Source: Pyrinomonadaceae bacterium MAG19_C2-C3 (GTDB lineage Bacteria > Acidobacteriota > Blastocatellia > Pyrinomonadales > Pyrinomonadaceae). Taken from it: a stretch of 64,000 nucleotides of DNA. Positions 3,872-16,730 of this stretch are shown here, one piece after another. The stretch is taken from positions 1 through 64,000 of the forward strand of contig JANDLT010000016.1 of NCBI GenBank assembly GCA_024330265.1, in the 5' to 3' direction. The notes under the pieces were generated by a model. It was not told the origin of the DNA. It saw nothing but the letters and a program-made list of their open reading frames with translations, and ran no database searches. The stretch's first letter is position 1. Each line of letters starts with the position of its first letter. A program made the translations under genes and the position numbers.

Positions 3872-4453
3872 ATGGGTCGCCGCCACGTTATTGAAAAGCT
3901 CGACGAATCGCAGTTGGATTTCGTCATCAACGCGATTATCGCTGGGATGACCGACCGCGAAATCTCTATGCAGTTTGAAGAAACTTTCAGTGCGCCGCTC
4001 GCTAAATCGTCACTGAATCGCTGGCGCACAGCCGCCGGTAACGAACTCGCCGAACGTCACCAACTCGCGCGCTATCAAGCGAAACAATTTCTGGAAAATG
4101 TCGGCGAGATAGATGCCGACAAATATCAAACGCTGCTTGGCAGCATCGAAGACCGGCTGCTGACCGCGACGCGCGACGTGATAATGAAAGACCCGTTGAA
4201 GTTGTTGAAAATTCGACAGGAAGAAGAAAATCGAAGGCTCAAGGTTCTCGAACTTGAACTCAAGCGCGAACATTTGGCACTTGACCGGGAACGACTGCGC
4301 GGCGCGGCGATTGACCGCGTGGCGTTGTCGGGTGAGTTACTAAAAGACTTGTTGGAACTCATCGGCAGCGACGCCGACGGCTTGAAATTTATCAAGCGAT
4401 TCGCCAAACCGTTTGACGAGTTTGTGAAAGCGAAGTATGCCGCCACAGCGTAA
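3872..4453 (+). CDS. Mu gp27-like protein (DUF3486), probable small terminase
   Basis: This 193-residue protein begins with the pattern common to DUF3486: a basic start, a helix-turn-helix-like region (about residues 8-55, with ITAGMTDREI-like spacing and KSSLNRW), then a long charged coiled coil and a C-terminal helical part. In Mu-like phages this protein directly precedes the large terminase and is considered the small subunit that recognises the packaging site. It overlaps the terminase gene by 17 bases, which indicates translational coupling. Confidence 0.8.
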   Translation: MGRRHVIEKLDESQLDFVINAIIAGMTDREISMQFEETFSAPLAKSSLNRWRTAAGNELAERHQLARYQAKQFLENVGEIDADKYQTLLGSIEDRLLTATRDVIMKDPLKLLKIRQEEENRRLKVLELELKREHLALDRERLRGAAIDRVALSGELLKDLLELIGSDADGLKFIKRFAKPFDEFVKAKYAATA

Positions 4454-6275
4454 AGCCAAACAGCAAGCGACCAGCGTTGATGATATTTTGCGCCGCGCTG
4501 ACGCACAGGCGGCAGGTGCAGGCGTGACGCTCGACGCCGAGCCGTACACGCTGGATTGGTACAGAGAGGATTACCCGGCGCGCAAGCGTGAGTTTATCGA
4601 ACGGGAAATCAAAATCCGTGATGCGTTTGATAGAAACACACTCAAGGATTTTATTCTCAACGACGCGCAAGTCGAGTTGTTAGATTCGGGAAATGAAGCG
4701 TTCTTTGATGCGAGTCTCGAAGATTATTCTTTGAAGTGTCGGCGGCTTGGCATCTCGACTTTCTATTGTGCTTCATACCTCACGGACGCGATTCTTGAAA
4801 GCGGTCATCACGTCCGCATCGTCGCGCAAGACCCTTCGACGTTGCGCGCTCTGATGCGCTCGCTTAAGGGCATGTACGACAATCTGCGCCCGGAGATTAA
4901 GCCCGCGTCGAAATATAATTCAGTTTATGACCTTGAGTTCGCCGACGAAGAAAAAGGCGTCGTCGGCTCACGCATCTCCGTCTCGGCGGTCGTTCCGGGT
5001 CAAGAAGAGAAAGGGCGCGGTGACACTTTTACCCGGCTGCACCTGACGGAGATTCCCTTCTGGCGCGGCGATGCGGAAACGGCGGCGACCGCCTTGTGCG
5101 ATGCCGCAAAGGGCGGCGTTATCAGTGGCGAATCAACGGCGAAGGGCGTCGGCGATTGGTTTCACCGGAAATACACGCAAGGCAAACTTCATCAAGGCGG
5201 CGTGCGCGCACATTTCTTCGAGTGGTGGTGGAATAGGAATTATCGTATCGCCGGAGCGCAGATTTTGCACCGTGACGGAACGAGGTATTTAGCCGTCGGC
5301 GCGAACCTCGAAAACTTCGACACGCTTGAGCCGGAACGACAAGCAGCCCTTGCCATCTCGAATTACACAGCAGAAGAACGCCTCGCGCGCACGCTCAATC
5401 TGCAATCTGAAAGCGACTGCACGCAACAAGTCCTCGCGCATTTGAAACGCAAAGGTCACGTTGAGGAATCGGCAGATTGGACGTGCGATGAAGTCGCGGA
5501 ATGCCTCGCGTGGCGACGACAAGAGATAGCGAAAAAAGGCGAAAAGAAATTTCGCGTTGAATACCCGGAGAACGATATTGACCCGTTCGCGCAAACGGGT
5601 GGCACGGTCTTCGACCAAGCATACACAGTCGTCGCTTGCGAACCGCGCGGAGCGATAGAGGGTCATAGTTACGTCGTCGGGCTTGACCCAAGCATGGGCA
5701 TTGACGGCGCAGACCCGGCGGCGGTGACGGTGATTGACCGCACGACGGGCGAGCAGGTTCATCACTGGGCGGGATACGAGAAACAGGACGCACAAGCCAA
5801 GCGCGTGTGTGCGTTGTCGGACATTTATAACGCCGCCGAAATCGTAATCGAGTCGAACATGGGCGAAGCGGCGATACTTGAATGTGAGCGATTGGGCTAT
5901 GGTCATCGGCTTTACAAGCACCTTGACGTGCAAACACAGCGAGATGTTGAGGATGGCAAAGTCACAATGCGCGATGCGATGTTGCGCGCCCGTCCCGGCG
6001 TGCAGATGACCGAGCGATTTAAGCGCTTGATAATCGGAATGTTTGAGAAGGCGTGGCGCGAGGGTGACTTCAAGGCGTGCGCGCAGGAGCTATGTGAGGA
6101 ATCCCGTGTGTTCGTTCAAAACGGCGAACGTATGGAAGCCAAATCAGGATTTCACGATGACATCATCATGGTCAATGGTTTTACTTGGTACGTCGTCGTT
6201 AGCTCACACGTCGTGACCGTTGATTTTGTATCTTCGGGGCAGAAGCTTGGCAGCGCGCGGTTGAAAGGTTATTGA
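4437..6275 (+). CDS. terminase large subunit, Mu gp28-like
   Basis: This 612-residue DNA-packaging motor has an N-terminal ATPase with a degenerate Walker A, KCRRLGIST (residues 100-108), and a Walker B-like LHLTEIPFW strand near residue 205. The C-terminal half is an RNase H-type nuclease with GLDPSMG (about 415-421), a middle acidic patch (ESNMGEA) and the final FHDDIIM (about 571-577), giving the three acidic metal-binding positions. It powers DNA translocation through the portal and cuts the DNA. It is translationally coupled to the gp27-like gene and followed after three bases by the portal fusion. Confidence 0.92.
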   Translation: MPPQRKAKQQATSVDDILRRADAQAAGAGVTLDAEPYTLDWYREDYPARKREFIEREIKIRDAFDRNTLKDFILNDAQVELLDSGNEAFFDASLEDYSLKCRRLGISTFYCASYLTDAILESGHHVRIVAQDPSTLRALMRSLKGMYDNLRPEIKPASKYNSVYDLEFADEEKGVVGSRISVSAVVPGQEEKGRGDTFTRLHLTEIPFWRGDAETAATALCDAAKGGVISGESTAKGVGDWFHRKYTQGKLHQGGVRAHFFEWWWNRNYRIAGAQILHRDGTRYLAVGANLENFDTLEPERQAALAISNYTAEERLARTLNLQSESDCTQQVLAHLKRKGHVEESADWTCDEVAECLAWRRQEIAKKGEKKFRVEYPENDIDPFAQTGGTVFDQAYTVVACEPRGAIEGHSYVVGLDPSMGIDGADPAAVTVIDRTTGEQVHHWAGYEKQDAQAKRVCALSDIYNAAEIVIESNMGEAAILECERLGYGHRLYKHLDVQTQRDVEDGKVTMRDAMLRARPGVQMTERFKRLIIGMFEKAWREGDFKACAQELCEESRVFVQNGERMEAKSGFHDDIIMVNGFTWYVVVSSHVVTVDFVSSGQKLGSARLKGY

Positions 6276-9562: not shown

Positions 9563-9757
9563 ATGGCTAACAACACTCCGCAAAGCAATCAACCGGCAGC
9601 CGGTTTCGAGATGGTGTTAATTACCTGCAAGTATTGCCGACGACCGCAGCTGGAAGTGACTCGTGATGCAAACGTCCTCATCCGGTGGAAATGTAAAGGG
9701 TGTCGTAATTGGCTCGTGTGCAAGATGCCGGAGTTAAAGTTTCTGCGAACACAGTGA
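9563..9757 (+). CDS. Com-like zinc-ribbon protein
   Basis: This 64-residue protein has two CxxC pairs (CKYC and CKGC, 23 residues apart from first to third Cys) in the spacing of the Mu Com family. In Mu, Com binds RNA and activates translation of the mom DNA-modification gene. No mom homologue is visible in this window. The gene stands alone between the MuF block and leader element copy 3. The zinc ribbon is clear; the Com assignment is moderate, and another small regulator is possible. Confidence 0.6.
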   Translation: MANNTPQSNQPAAGFEMVLITCKYCRRPQLEVTRDANVLIRWKCKGCRNWLVCKMPELKFLRTQ

Positions 9758-9854: not shown

Positions 9855-10928
9855 ATGGCTAATTTCAATAACCAGTGGATGGAAATTTTCGCGGCTGGCG
9901 AGCGCGTTGACAGCGCGGGGCAGCGGCACATCATCACGCATGATTTTCTCGATGCGGTCGTGGCGAACTTCAATGCCGCCGAACACGAGCCGCCTGCGGT
10001 GATCGGGCATCCGGCGGATAACAAACCCGCATTCGGTTGGGTCGGCGAACTGCGGCGTGAGGGTCAGAGCCTCGAAGCGCGATTCAAGGAAACGGATGCA
10101 GATTTTGAGCAGATGGTCGAACGCGGGGCGTTTAAGAAACGCTCGGCGTCTTTTTACTTGGACGCAGGCAGCGCGGGAGTTTCGCGCGTGCCTGCGCTCC
10201 GGCATGTCGGTTTTTTAGGAGCGCAACCGCCAAGCGTCAAGGGTTTGCGCGAGATTCAATTCAGCGAAGGTGACGCTATCACTTTCAATTTTTCAGAAGG
10301 AGACACGATGACGGGAGAACAAGAAACATCGCTAGTCGAGCGCGTCACCAATGCGATTCAAGCGAAGTTCGCACAAGCGTTTGGTGGCGGCAACGCGCCA
10401 ACGCAACATGCAAGCTTCTCTGAACAGGACGTGCAGCGCATCGTCAACGACGCGATCACGAAAACCAAGACGGAACTGACGACTGACTTTTCAGAAAAGT
10501 TCACAGCGGTTGAAAACCAAAACAAATTATTGCGCGAGGCAGTCAGCACGTCGAGTGCGGCGCAAACCAGAGTCGAGATTATTTCTTTCTGCGAAGCATT
10601 GGGCAACGACAAGCTGCCACCCGCATTGAAGAATCTTGGCATTGTCGAATTTATGGAGTCGCTTGCCGCCGGTTCACCGGACGCGCAAAAAGTGACGACG
10701 ATTTCTTTCACTGAACAGGATGGGGCGAAGGTCGAGACGAAAACCGAAACGACGCAACTCGCGTGGTTCAAAAATTTCTTATCCGCGCTCGCGCCGATTA
10801 TCTCTTTTGGCGAGCAGTTCGGTGCGCTGAAAAGCACAGGCAATGATGCGGTGATAACCAATCCGGCGCGGATGGATGAGTTGCGCGCCAAAGACGGATT
10901 GCCGACGAAAACCGGAGGTGACAAATAA
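9855..10928 (+). CDS. Mu I-like capsid maturation protease with scaffold region
   Basis: This 357-residue protein resembles the Mu I family. The N-terminal 135 residues contain the typical DFLDAVVANFNA and AVIGHP regions and an FKKRSASFYLD stretch near the cleavage-associated part. The middle and C-terminus are helical and acidic, as expected for a fused scaffold. The protease trims scaffold and capsid during head maturation. An internal in-frame ATG with a strong ribosome site gives a second product (see 10308-10928). The ATG follows the hairpin of leader copy 3 without a ribosome site. Confidence 0.85.
   Translation: MANFNNQWMEIFAAGERVDSAGQRHIITHDFLDAVVANFNAAEHEPPAVIGHPADNKPAFGWVGELRREGQSLEARFKETDADFEQMVERGAFKKRSASFYLDAGSAGVSRVPALRHVGFLGAQPPSVKGLREIQFSEGDAITFNFSEGDTMTGEQETSLVERVTNAIQAKFAQAFGGGNAPTQHASFSEQDVQRIVNDAITKTKTELTTDFSEKFTAVENQNKLLREAVSTSSAAQTRVEIISFCEALGNDKLPPALKNLGIVEFMESLAAGSPDAQKVTTISFTEQDGAKVETKTETTQLAWFKNFLSALAPIISFGEQFGALKSTGNDAVITNPARMDELRAKDGLPTKTGGDK
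10308..10928 (+). CDS. internal-start scaffold protein, Mu Z-like
   Basis: Inside the protease gene, AGAAGGAGA (10295-10303) is followed by ATG at 10308, in frame at codon 152. Translation from here would give a 206-residue protein lacking the protease domain, the same nested arrangement as Mu I/Z and lambda C/Nu3. The site is far stronger than that of the full-length gene. The product is helical and glutamine/lysine-rich, as scaffolds are. Confidence 0.5.
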   Translation: MTGEQETSLVERVTNAIQAKFAQAFGGGNAPTQHASFSEQDVQRIVNDAITKTKTELTTDFSEKFTAVENQNKLLREAVSTSSAAQTRVEIISFCEALGNDKLPPALKNLGIVEFMESLAAGSPDAQKVTTISFTEQDGAKVETKTETTQLAWFKNFLSALAPIISFGEQFGALKSTGNDAVITNPARMDELRAKDGLPTKTGGDK

Positions 10929-13300: not shown

Positions 13301-13651
13301 ATGACACCGACGCCGGAGTACGACTTACTGATTCCACGGGGAGCGACGTTTGAGCGCGGTTTTAATCTCACTAAGAATGGCGCGACTCCGAACGCGCCGA
13401 GAGTCCCACTTCCTTTAACCGGAGCGATTCCGCGCTTCACGCTTCGCACAGCGAACGGATTAACCAGAACGTGGAGCGTAGAGGGTGGGCAGCTGTTATT
13501 TGAGCCGCTTAACGGCAGAGTCGGCTTACTGCTCTCACCCGGCGCGATAGAAAATTTGGATTTCACAACGGCGACTTATCGCTTCACGGTCGAGTTTCCC
13601 AACGGCAAAACGAAGCTCTACTCGAAGGGCAAAGTCATAGTGATTGCCTGA
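13301..13651 (+). CDS. phage hypothetical protein, beta-rich
   Basis: This 116-residue protein begins with a pattern (LIPRGATFERGFNLTKNG) that recurs in small beta-sandwich proteins located in head and tail regions of many phages. It shows alternating strands throughout, an LLLSPGAIENLDF element and a final strand. A role as decoration or tail-attached beta protein is possible; no enzyme motif is present. Confidence 0.6.
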   Translation: MTPTPEYDLLIPRGATFERGFNLTKNGATPNAPRVPLPLTGAIPRFTLRTANGLTRTWSVEGGQLLFEPLNGRVGLLLSPGAIENLDFTTATYRFTVEFPNGKTKLYSKGKVIVIA

Positions 13652-13652
13652 A

Positions 13653-14162
13653 ATGCCGGAACTTCTCACGATTATCGAAGAACGCACGTATCTGGAAATC
13701 AATGATGCGAGCGAGAGCGTGCTGCTTGAAATCGTGACGGATGCCGACGTTGAGATTTTGGAAATCGCCGAACAAGGTCCGCCGGGTCCGCCCGGAACGG
13801 GAACGAGCGGGATTGAGTTTGAGTACCTTGCAGGAAAGCCGCTTGGCGGGCAGCGCGCGGTCATCCTCGACACTGACGGGCGGTTGGTGTATGCCGACCA
13901 CAGAACTTTGACACATCGTTTTCGCGTGCTCGGCATCACGCTGCACGCGGCATTGACGGATGAGCCTGTACTGGTGCGGGCGGCGGGTGTGATTAGTGAG
14001 CCGTCGTGGACGTGGACGGCAGATTTGCCGATTTTCGTTGCTACCGACGGGCAGTTGACGCAGGTTCCGCCCCTGTTTGGTTTTCATAGAAGCGTTGGCG
14101 TCGCGCTTACTGAAGCTGAGATTTTGGTGCGGATTGAACTTCCGATTTTACTGGCGGCATAA
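13653..14162 (+). CDS. phage hypothetical protein with short collagen-like linker
   Basis: This 169-residue protein has an N-terminal beta hairpin region, a short GPPGPPGTG collagen-like stretch (about residues 47-55) and a C-terminal beta-rich domain with ADHRTLTHRFRVLGIT and repeated VALTEAEILVRI strands. Collagen-like stretches are common in phage fibre or head-decoration proteins. The ATG at 13653 directly follows the previous stop. The function is unknown. Confidence 0.6.
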   Translation: MPELLTIIEERTYLEINDASESVLLEIVTDADVEILEIAEQGPPGPPGTGTSGIEFEYLAGKPLGGQRAVILDTDGRLVYADHRTLTHRFRVLGITLHAALTDEPVLVRAAGVISEPSWTWTADLPIFVATDGQLTQVPPLFGFHRSVGVALTEAEILVRIELPILLAA

Positions 14163-14183
14163 AAACTTTAGGAGTGCGAACTG

Positions 14184-14696
14184 ATGGCAAAATATATAGA
14201 ACTGGCAGCGAGCGGAGATTTACGCGAAGCGTTGCCGGTGGTGGTGAGTGCGGGGGCGGGCGATGCGGAGCGCATCGTCCAGACGGACGCGAGCGGCAAA
14301 CTCGACCAATCTTTACTGCCCGTCGGGATGGGCGCAGACACGCAGGTTATCGTAGCAAGCGAAGGACTTGCGGCAGGCGACTTCGTGAACATCTGGGCGG
14401 ACGCGGGAACGGCGAAGGTGCGTAAGGCTGACGCGGCGACGGCGGGAAAAGAGGCGGACGGGTTCGTGCTGGCAGTCGTCGCGTCGGGTGCGAATGCGAC
14501 TGTGTATTTTGAAGATGATAATACCCAACTCGCGTCGCTTGCTCCCGGCACAAAGTATTTCTTATCGGCGACGACTCCGGGCGGCGTCACGGATACGCCG
14601 CCAAACGGCACGGGGAAAGTTGTGCAACGGCTTGGCAAGGCGTTATCGGCAACGGCACTCAAGTACGAACGCGGCAGACCGATTACCTTGGCGTGA
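14184..14696 (+). CDS. capsid-surface or fibre-like beta protein
   Basis: This 170-residue protein starts with ATG behind AGGAGTG. It contains the motif VQTDASGKLDQSLLP, frequent in phage surface proteins, and a beta-strand-rich region with DGFVLAVVASG and a proline/glycine loop. Its C-terminus resembles that of the previous protein in layout, hinting that the two work together. A decoration role is a guess. Confidence 0.6.
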   Translation: MAKYIELAASGDLREALPVVVSAGAGDAERIVQTDASGKLDQSLLPVGMGADTQVIVASEGLAAGDFVNIWADAGTAKVRKADAATAGKEADGFVLAVVASGANATVYFEDDNTQLASLAPGTKYFLSATTPGGVTDTPPNGTGKVVQRLGKALSATALKYERGRPITLA

Positions 14697-14702
14697 TTTT
14701 AG

Positions 14703-15341
14703 ATGAAGGCTTTGATGCTAACCACGACTGGCGACGTGATAGAAACGCAGGTGGCGGAAGTCCCCGCGTGGCACGGGGTGCTGTATGCGGCTCGCGGAAA
14801 CTGTGACCCGCACAGAGGGGCAGCCATGCTCGATATGGGCGCGGTACTCGGACCCACGCCGTCGAATCTGACGCCCTCAATTGCGCGGTGCGTCAAATTT
14901 CGACCGCCCGCCACGATAAACGTTGCGACGGTACATCTGTTCGCCGTCGCCGCCTCGTCTGCAGTTTCCCGTTTCGCTATTTACCGTGCAGGCGATAGGG
15001 TTTTGGTCTGGGATTCGGGAGTCACGGCGACTGCTACAAATGCGTGGCTCTCCTTTGTTACTAATTTCATACTCGCGGCAAATGCCAATCACTGGTTCAG
15101 CTTTTCGGTCAGTGCCAACGGGTCAACTGCATCTTTCCGCACGCCACCCGCTCCGCTCTCGGCTAACCAGTGGGGAACGGACACTGCGCCACTTGGCGAT
15201 AACGATTTAGGGCTTCCGGTTTTGGCTCAATTCGCGGTGACTAACGGAGTGTTTCCGGCGGTGATGCCCGCGCTCACCGCCGCCGCTTACGCGGGCGGCG
15301 CGACGGGCAGCGTCCCCGTCGCTTTTCTGTCGGCGGTTTGA
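14703..15341 (+). CDS. phage hypothetical protein, beta-sandwich-like
   Basis: This 212-residue protein has no predicted membrane segment. It has strands around RFAIYRAGDRVLVWDSG and NHWFSFSVSANG, reminiscent of carbohydrate-binding or host-surface-binding beta-sandwiches. It lies between the presumed decoration genes and the tail-completion gene and probably belongs to the virion surface. I recognise no named family. Confidence 0.55.
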   Translation: MKALMLTTTGDVIETQVAEVPAWHGVLYAARGNCDPHRGAAMLDMGAVLGPTPSNLTPSIARCVKFRPPATINVATVHLFAVAASSAVSRFAIYRAGDRVLVWDSGVTATATNAWLSFVTNFILAANANHWFSFSVSANGSTASFRTPPAPLSANQWGTDTAPLGDNDLGLPVLAQFAVTNGVFPAVMPALTAAAYAGGATGSVPVAFLSAV

Positions 15342-15343
15342 TT

Positions 15344-15853
15344 ATGGCGGCACTCAAAAGTCTTGACCAACTCATTACACATCTCTCTGCACTGGAGACA
15401 AACGGACGGGATTTGACTCCGGCGTTCAAGGCGAGCGGCATGTACATGCGGGGTTCGATTGAGCGCAACTTTCGCGCGCAGGGCAGACCGCAGAGGTGGC
15501 AAGCGTTAGCACCTGTGACACTCGCCGGAAGACGCAAGGGCAAAGGTCAGGGTTCGGCACAGATACTCGTCAACAACGCGGATTTGAAAAACTCTTTTAG
15601 TGAGGAAGTCACGAACAGCAGCGTTGAAATCGGAACGAACAAGGTGCAAGCGCGGCGTTTGCACTTCGGTTATCCGGGCAAGAAAAGCACAAAGCGGACG
15701 CGATATAAGCGCGGCGCAAATAAGGGAAAGGTCAAACCCGTGCGCTGGCAGAGCGGACACACGCGGACACCGGCAAGACCGTTTCTGATGTTTCAGACGG
15801 AAGATTACGACCAGATTGCAGGGGTTTTCAATCGGCATCTTTTTGGACGGTAA
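15344..15853 (+). CDS. virion morphogenesis protein, Mu gpG / P2 gpS-like
   Basis: This 169-residue protein fits the phage virion morphogenesis family that completes tails and lets them join heads. Family features include the N-terminal helical part, GSIERNFRAQGRP(Q)RWQAL near residues 40-60, a lysine/arginine-rich middle and the C-terminal TPARPFLMF. The ATG at 15344 is preferred over an upstream TTG. Its order before gp37 and the sheath agrees with Mu-like phages. Confidence 0.8.
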   Translation: MAALKSLDQLITHLSALETNGRDLTPAFKASGMYMRGSIERNFRAQGRPQRWQALAPVTLAGRRKGKGQGSAQILVNNADLKNSFSEEVTNSSVEIGTNKVQARRLHFGYPGKKSTKRTRYKRGANKGKVKPVRWQSGHTRTPARPFLMFQTEDYDQIAGVFNRHLFGR

Positions 15854-15858
15854 AACTT

Positions 15859-16068
15859 ATGGACGACAACTTTCTTGACTCATTTGATTATCACACACCG
15901 ACTTCCGAACAGGTTGAGCAAATGAAACTGGTGCGTGGCGTAGCGAAAAACTTGGCGCGAGCGATTAACAGTAACGTGCCGGACGGGGCGGATAAATCAG
16001 CCGCGATGCGGAAGTTGCGCGAGTGCGTAATGACTTGTAATGCCGCGATTGTGCTTGAAAAGAAATGA
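15859..16068 (+). CDS. Acb2/Tad1-hairpin-family cyclic nucleotide sponge (anti-CBASS candidate)
   Basis: This 69-residue protein matches the pattern I know for the Acb2 family: FDYHTPTSEQVE (residues 9-20), a first long helix, a loop with PDGADKSAAMRKL, then a second helix ending CNAAIV. Acb2 proteins of phages bind cyclic di- and trinucleotides and block CBASS (and some Thoeris) defence. The usual Trp in the second helix appears to be replaced here. The gene overlaps the following gp37-like gene by ATGA coupling, so it would be made late with virion parts. The family call is from memory of the motif; ligand binding is not shown. Confidence 0.75.
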   Translation: MDDNFLDSFDYHTPTSEQVEQMKLVRGVAKNLARAINSNVPDGADKSAAMRKLRECVMTCNAAIVLEKK

Positions 16069-16730
16069 GTGACGTGCAGCAACATCTCGGTTTCGAGTTT
16101 TTCATTGGCGGCATTGAAGACGCGGCGATGGAACGCTTGCGTTTGGAATTGCTGCAAGGCACGGCGACACAAGGTTATGTCAAGACGATTCAGTCTTATG
16201 GCGGCGAGTTGGACAAGGATGAATTGCGCGAGGCGTTGGATACGCTGGCGAGTTCGTTTCCGCTCATGCTCGTTGCTTACGGCGCGGGCAAAGACCGGAA
16301 AGACCCGTCAAGCGCGCCGTTGCCGGATGAACCGCAGACGTTCATTCATGACTTCGGATTGACAATTGTGTGTTGTGACAACGATGCGCGCGGCGAGAGC
16401 GTCAGGCGACGCGGCGCGAACGGCAGGCGCGGCGTGTATCGGATGATTGATGACGCCAGACGACTGCTGCTTGGCAAAAGATTCGTCGCGCAGACGAATG
16501 ACGGCGAGGACGTGTTGCTCAATCTTGATGCGTTCAAGCCCGCAGGTGTGGAGATGATCGCGCGGCTGCCGGACATGACCGCGTATGCCGTCCACTTCGA
16601 TACGTCGTTTAAGTTCGACGTGATGCCGGAGATGGAGGTTATCAGTATCGAGAAAATCAACGTCGATCTTGATTTGGCGGAAAAGAGTTCGAGCGCGCGG
16701 GCTGAGCGTCCGGGCGTATTTTTTAACTAA
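16065..16730 (+). CDS. Mu gp37-like protein (DUF1834)
   Basis: This 221-residue protein has the DUF1834 layout: an N-terminal helical region leading to IQSYGGELD, then a strand with PLMLVAYGAG, and later MIDDARRLLLGKRF. In Mu-like phages gp37 lies between gp36/gpG and the sheath, as here, and is thought to belong to the neck or tail terminator. Its ATG overlaps the stop codon of the Acb2-like gene. Confidence 0.75.
   Translation: MSDVQQHLGFEFFIGGIEDAAMERLRLELLQGTATQGYVKTIQSYGGELDKDELREALDTLASSFPLMLVAYGAGKDRKDPSSAPLPDEPQTFIHDFGLTIVCCDNDARGESVRRRGANGRRGVYRMIDDARRLLLGKRFVAQTNDGEDVLLNLDAFKPAGVEMIARLPDMTAYAVHFDTSFKFDVMPEMEVISIEKINVDLDLAEKSSSARAERPGVFFN

Follow-up and report, generated by a model that had tools for sequence, protein, structure and literature searches.

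Acb2 proteins of phage PaMx33 (ORF24) and phage T4 (Vs.4) are the experimentally studied relatives against which the gene described here can be placed. The Acb2 protomer was described in PMC10419184, and for the T4 protein the substitution Y8A yields a binding-deficient mutant and T68M lowers affinity (PMC12657230). The acb2 genes of both phages lie outside the virion operon. Unlike these, the gene analyzed here is found inside the virion operon of a prophage from a soil bacterium of the Acidobacteriota. It is likely to encode an Acb2-family cyclic-oligonucleotide sponge, and as a single-gene "moron" it would be cargo of this Mu-type-head phage's late operon.

The window, i.e., the whole stretch of DNA that was analyzed, comprises bases 1-64000 (64,000 nucleotides) of an 87-kb contig from a 4.8-Mb genome in 144 contigs. 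The host belongs to the Pyrinomonadaceae (Acidobacteriota, Blastocatellia) and its assembly is 94% complete. A Mu-type-head prophage occupies the first 33 kb of the window, its left end cut by the contig edge, and chromosomal genes follow. The features of interest are listed below; G133 and G025 are genomes from the host's family with related prophages, and L142, L143, and L148 are viral loci of the same phage group.

4437..32754, + strand: late operon of the Mu-type-head prophage (from its domains and synteny with the G133 prophage)
13301..15341, + strand: four accessory genes between gp36 and Phage_tail_S, missing from the same junction in L028 (G025), L142, L143, and L148
15338..15853, + strand: Phage_tail_S, a tail completion or Neck1 protein, upstream neighbor (PF05069, E 1e-18; phrog_26 connector, E 8e-25)
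15845..15850, + strand: GGACGG, a putative weak ribosome-binding site 8 nt upstream of the ATG (read from the sequence)
15859..16068, + strand: acb2-type gene (Acb2_Tad1_hairpin), 69 aa (PF24729, PHROG, AF2, Foldseek)
16065..16730, + strand: Mu gp37-like virion gene (Phage_Mu_Gp37), downstream neighbor (PF08873, E 5.6e-11)

The late operon encodes terminase, Portal_Mu/gpF, protease, major capsid E, gp36, neck, gp37, sheath, tape measure, and the baseplate region, and runs on leftwards in the direction of the contig edge; the tail sheath gene comes after the gp37-like gene. Between gpF and the protease there is also a small Cys-rich, zinc-ribbon-like ORF (window positions 9563-9757) reminiscent of Mu Com, which is present in G025 (L028) as well.

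The ORF at 15859-16068 (+) has an ATG start and encodes 69 aa (MDDNFLDSFDYHTPTSEQ...VMTCNAAIVLEKK), exactly as an earlier, sequence-only reading had described it. That reading had assigned the product to the Acb2 family on the strength of YHxPTxEQ and CNAAI motifs, both of which are indeed present, and a profile search upheld the assignment: the protein matches Pfam PF24729 (Acb2_Tad1_hairpin) with an E value of 1.6e-13 and 51.1 bits, far beyond chance given the gathering cut-off of 27, and the same model had zero matches in 14 control genomes. PF24729 also recognizes the Acb2 proteins of T4 (E 7e-20) and PaMx33 (E 3e-18), whose genes were taken from their own sequence records. PHROG 1454 and 31113 match at E values of about 1e-14 to 1e-15. 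The sole convincing sequence relative in the PDB, and hence the best sequence match among solved structures, is Acb2 homolog 43 (PDB 9ptq; phmmer E 0.003, profile E 1.5e-8), which differs by a divergent C-terminal motif. Identity to the PaMx33 and T4 proteins is only about 20% and the hairpin is shorter (69 versus 93 and 88 aa, respectively). When viral and genome contigs were searched with the single sequence, no relatives were confirmed; a narrower four-sequence alignment retrieved 211 from viral contigs and 13 from genomes. Among the related sequences are uncharacterized Acb2-like genes from soil viral contigs and from the Tunturiibacter phage Tunturi_1, with about 44-69% core identity and the signature ADQ/KxAAxRKLRExVMTxNA. 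Unlike the window copy, the soil viral contig genes lie at different genomic positions, and that of Tunturi_1 is surrounded by small hypothetical genes, close to an RNase H gene, rather than being placed among annotated virion genes.

The AF2 single-chain model of the protein (pLDDT 93) consists of a short helix (residues 3-9) followed by two long antiparallel helices (16-39 and 44-66). This is the predicted arrangement shared with PaMx33 Acb2 and T4 Vs.4, and the helices agree with the protomer reported in PMC10419184. When the model was compared with 350,542 PDB chains using Foldseek, the top match was 7uq2, T4 Vs.4 with cGAMP (probability 0.95, TM 0.70), and the Acb2 structures 8h2x and 8h2j were among the next; no E value in this search was significant (best, 0.73), as the protein is short and helical. 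Tad1 shares the PF24729 hairpin but has an N-terminal antiparallel beta sheet (PMC12043709), a domain that the window protein lacks, since merely 15 residues precede its first long helix. Taken together, the Pfam and PHROG matches, the alignment to experimentally studied Acb2s, the confident model, and the ranking of the fold search give good computational support for counting the 69-aa protein as a new Acb2, in a family whose mechanism is already known.

The sequence-only reading had also placed the gene among head-tail genes and coupled it by ATGA to a gp37-like virion gene, predicting late expression. Both observations hold, with Phage_tail_S upstream and Phage_Mu_Gp37 downstream and with the acb2 stop overlapping the gp37-like start as ATGA at 16065-16068. 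No sigma70-like promoter match was found on the + strand between 13000 and 19000, a weak negative. The shared strand, the compact single operon, the ATGA overlap, and the lack of a promoter match make late coexpression of acb2 with the head-tail operon likely.

Comparison with related phages indicates how the gene came to be there. The related prophages of G133 and G025 have no PF24729 gene. In G133 (L027), Phage_tail_S and gp37 are adjacent with an ATGA overlap, and in L142, L143, and L148 Phage_tail_S likewise adjoins gp37 with no space for a 200-base gene, the available stretches of these three loci giving no Acb2 match. Because the two genes are neighbors in all four relatives, acb2 is, as judged from synteny, a one-gene insertion between Phage_tail_S and gp37, and the ATGA junction in front of gp37 is now its own. 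In L028 (G025:C127), a different gene begins directly behind Phage_tail_S (10444-10567), the contig ending before gp37; the Tail_S/gp37 junction may hence be an insertion hot spot. The number of genes on the other, gp36 side of Phage_tail_S also varies, with four in the window, one in G133, and none in G025, L142, L143, and L148. Since the window genes at 13301-15341 are absent there in relatives and two of them (13644 and 14184) recur elsewhere, between terminase and portal in the sister phage L145, the gp36/Phage_tail_S junction suggests a second cargo site, so that both sides of Phage_tail_S look like places where cargo is taken up.

Given its location between neck and gp37 genes, the gene might instead encode a small virion or head-tail assembly component, e.g., a connector chaperone, with nothing but the helical hairpin in common with Acb2, and a match to the head-tail connector family Phage_Gp19 (PF09355) points the same way. 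However, that match reaches only 15.3 bits, below the cut-off of 22, and the Acb2 model scores 36 bits better. Moreover, the gene is missing from four sister phages whose neighboring genes are otherwise syntenic and is thus not needed for assembly, and its homologues occupy early or nonstructural regions in T4, in PaMx33, and in a second prophage of the same genome (see below). We regard a structural role as highly improbable and retain the Acb2 sponge as the reading of the gene.

A position among virion genes had been called unusual for an antidefense gene. This is so relative to T4 and PaMx33 only, and uniqueness of the placement was rejected after a survey of relatives. An Acb2 homologue lies directly behind the portal gene in Gordonia phages, between capsid and neck genes in a Vibrio phage, between Portal_Mu/gpF and protease in a Geobacteraceae MAG (L114), between the small and large terminase genes in L079, a phage related to that of the window, and just upstream of the major head gene in G142 (L023). 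Across 75 deduplicated Acb2 loci, terminase, portal, and head-tail adaptor families occur among the neighbors, as do Sak4, methyltransferases, integrases, and ParB-like genes (these tallies are family counts, in which one protein may count in several families). Some homologues are in early or replication regions, and the genomic context of the family is accordingly mixed. In a tree with few resolved forks, the copies from the window, L114, and L079 are placed in separate parts, suggesting that Acb2 probably entered virion operons on more than one occasion.

Two further observations were made at these loci. In L024 (G008:C674), positions 4109-4966 (-) encode a 285-aa protein with two repeats of ~95 aa and a C-terminal Acb2 hairpin, possibly a two-domain sponge. 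Genes that by sequence look like DNA adenine methylases lie near Acb2-type genes in L079 (6202-7065) and L037 (1890-2714), and methyltransferase families are also among the downstream neighbors of Acb2 loci.

At the residue level, Tyr11 aligns with PaMx33 Tyr11 and with the ligand-contact residue Tyr8 of T4, and Arg26 aligns with PaMx33 Lys26 and T4 Lys23, so that a basic residue is kept at the PaMx33 Lys26 position, which we take to be a site with a role in binding. Among 68 aligned relatives, the tyrosine is conserved in 65 and Arg26 in all 68. The window protein retains the invariant and near-invariant positions F9, Y11, H12, P14, R26, D45, R51, R54, and N61. The MAFFT placement of the PaMx33 C terminus looks wrong (KTDIQTGMMAIIRAIAQP fits the T4 tail better by eye), and no residue-level conclusion was therefore drawn from this part of PaMx33. 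Unlike T4 Acb2, the window protein has Arg51 and Thr59 at the positions of T4 Thr68 and Trp76. Residue 22, tyrosine in 54 of the 68 relatives, is methionine here and methionine or leucine in most of its own clade. The search with the four-sequence alignment favored threonine at residue 59 through its own pattern, but Thr59 is also present in relatives retrieved independently of that motif. The earlier suggestion of an altered second-helix aromatic that might change ligand preference is thus right in that the change exists, be it Met22 or Thr59 versus T4 Trp76; as far as the alignment goes, however, both are features of the clade or subfamily and hence not special to this protein.

A residue peculiar to the window copy is Cys60, the position being alanine in 66 of the 68 relatives. 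This replacement of a near-invariant Ala (1/68), together with the fact that no target system was found in the present host, could mean that the gene is a passenger, decayed or neutral, whose product has lost ligand binding. Decay is improbable, though, for an ORF that is full length with its coupling intact, keeps all nine of the conserved residues named above, and gives a confident AF2 model.

The sequence-only reading had proposed checking the host genome for CBASS. The host assembly yielded no SMODS CD-NTase; a SAVED domain was not found either, but this says little, as the SAVED search also matched no control genome. Possible targets exist among related hosts, SMODS CD-NTases being present in 19 of the 162 genomes of the host's class. 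The protein might be an Acb2 homologue tuned to a signal other than CBASS dinucleotides, such as a cyclic trinucleotide, the gcADPR of Thoeris, or the cyclic oligoadenylate of type III CRISPR. Besides the want of a recognizable SMODS enzyme in the host, PF24729 spans both Acb2 and Tad1, reviewed members of both groups bind several signals (PMC12043709), and the subfamily has the changes Arg51 (T4 Thr68) and Thr59 (T4 Trp76). Yet the protein retains Tyr11 and a basic residue at position 26 and has no N-terminal beta domain like that of Tad1, and no Cas10 palm domain was found in the host assembly. We consider tuning to another signal the less probable case, though one of appreciable likelihood.

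The same genome carries a second Acb2-type gene (L003; G000 contig C4, 4894-5115, -). It encodes 73 aa and belongs to the early operon of an integrase/CI-type prophage, the contig being 9.9 kb long. Its product is about 50% identical to the window copy and is not its sister in the tree. That C4 might supply the early half which the window prophage lacks was considered and judged improbable, as C4 has nothing in common with the early region of the sister prophage in G133. The window does not contain the tRNA-end repeat of C4, which reappears at the beginning of C91, and the tree separates the two Acb2 copies. C4 and the window are probably, if not provably, different prophages.

Returning to the Acb2 sponge, we envisage that upon prophage induction or infection the late operon would be read through, and translation of acb2 would fall between those of the neck and gp37 genes. 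Its product would form hexamers and sequester the cyclic di- or trinucleotides made by CBASS as virion proteins accumulate, and CBASS effectors would stay off until lysis. The insertion would preserve the tight ATGA coupling before gp37, and virion assembly would thus be undisturbed. A late sponge fits the finding that Acb2 acts upon induction of a lysogen and not during its maintenance (PMC12043709). It also fits the escape of acb2-deleted phages from CBASS by capsid-gene mutations (PMC10419184), although this link is indirect, as the wild-type capsid gene is reported not to set off CBASS toxicity by itself (PMC10419184). Late timing is not needed for Acb2 function, as is clear from the location of the T4 and PaMx33 genes. 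More tentatively, phages with Mu-type heads could have acquired Acb2 sponges repeatedly at different points of the late operon, timing the sponge with the capsid and tail proteins, when CBASS may be triggered, and the Arg51/Thr59 subfamily may have a ligand preference of its own.

Repeated placement of Acb2 in late operons, with clean evidence of insertion, is suggested as a modest new point. The data extend the Acb2 family by a large branch from soil phages, most of it unannotated, and reveal a clean one-gene insertion of a member of this anti-CBASS sponge family in the late operon of an Acidobacteriota phage. The relatives without the gene are natural controls and, by comparing early with late sponge genes, would make it testable when in infection the sponge must be present.
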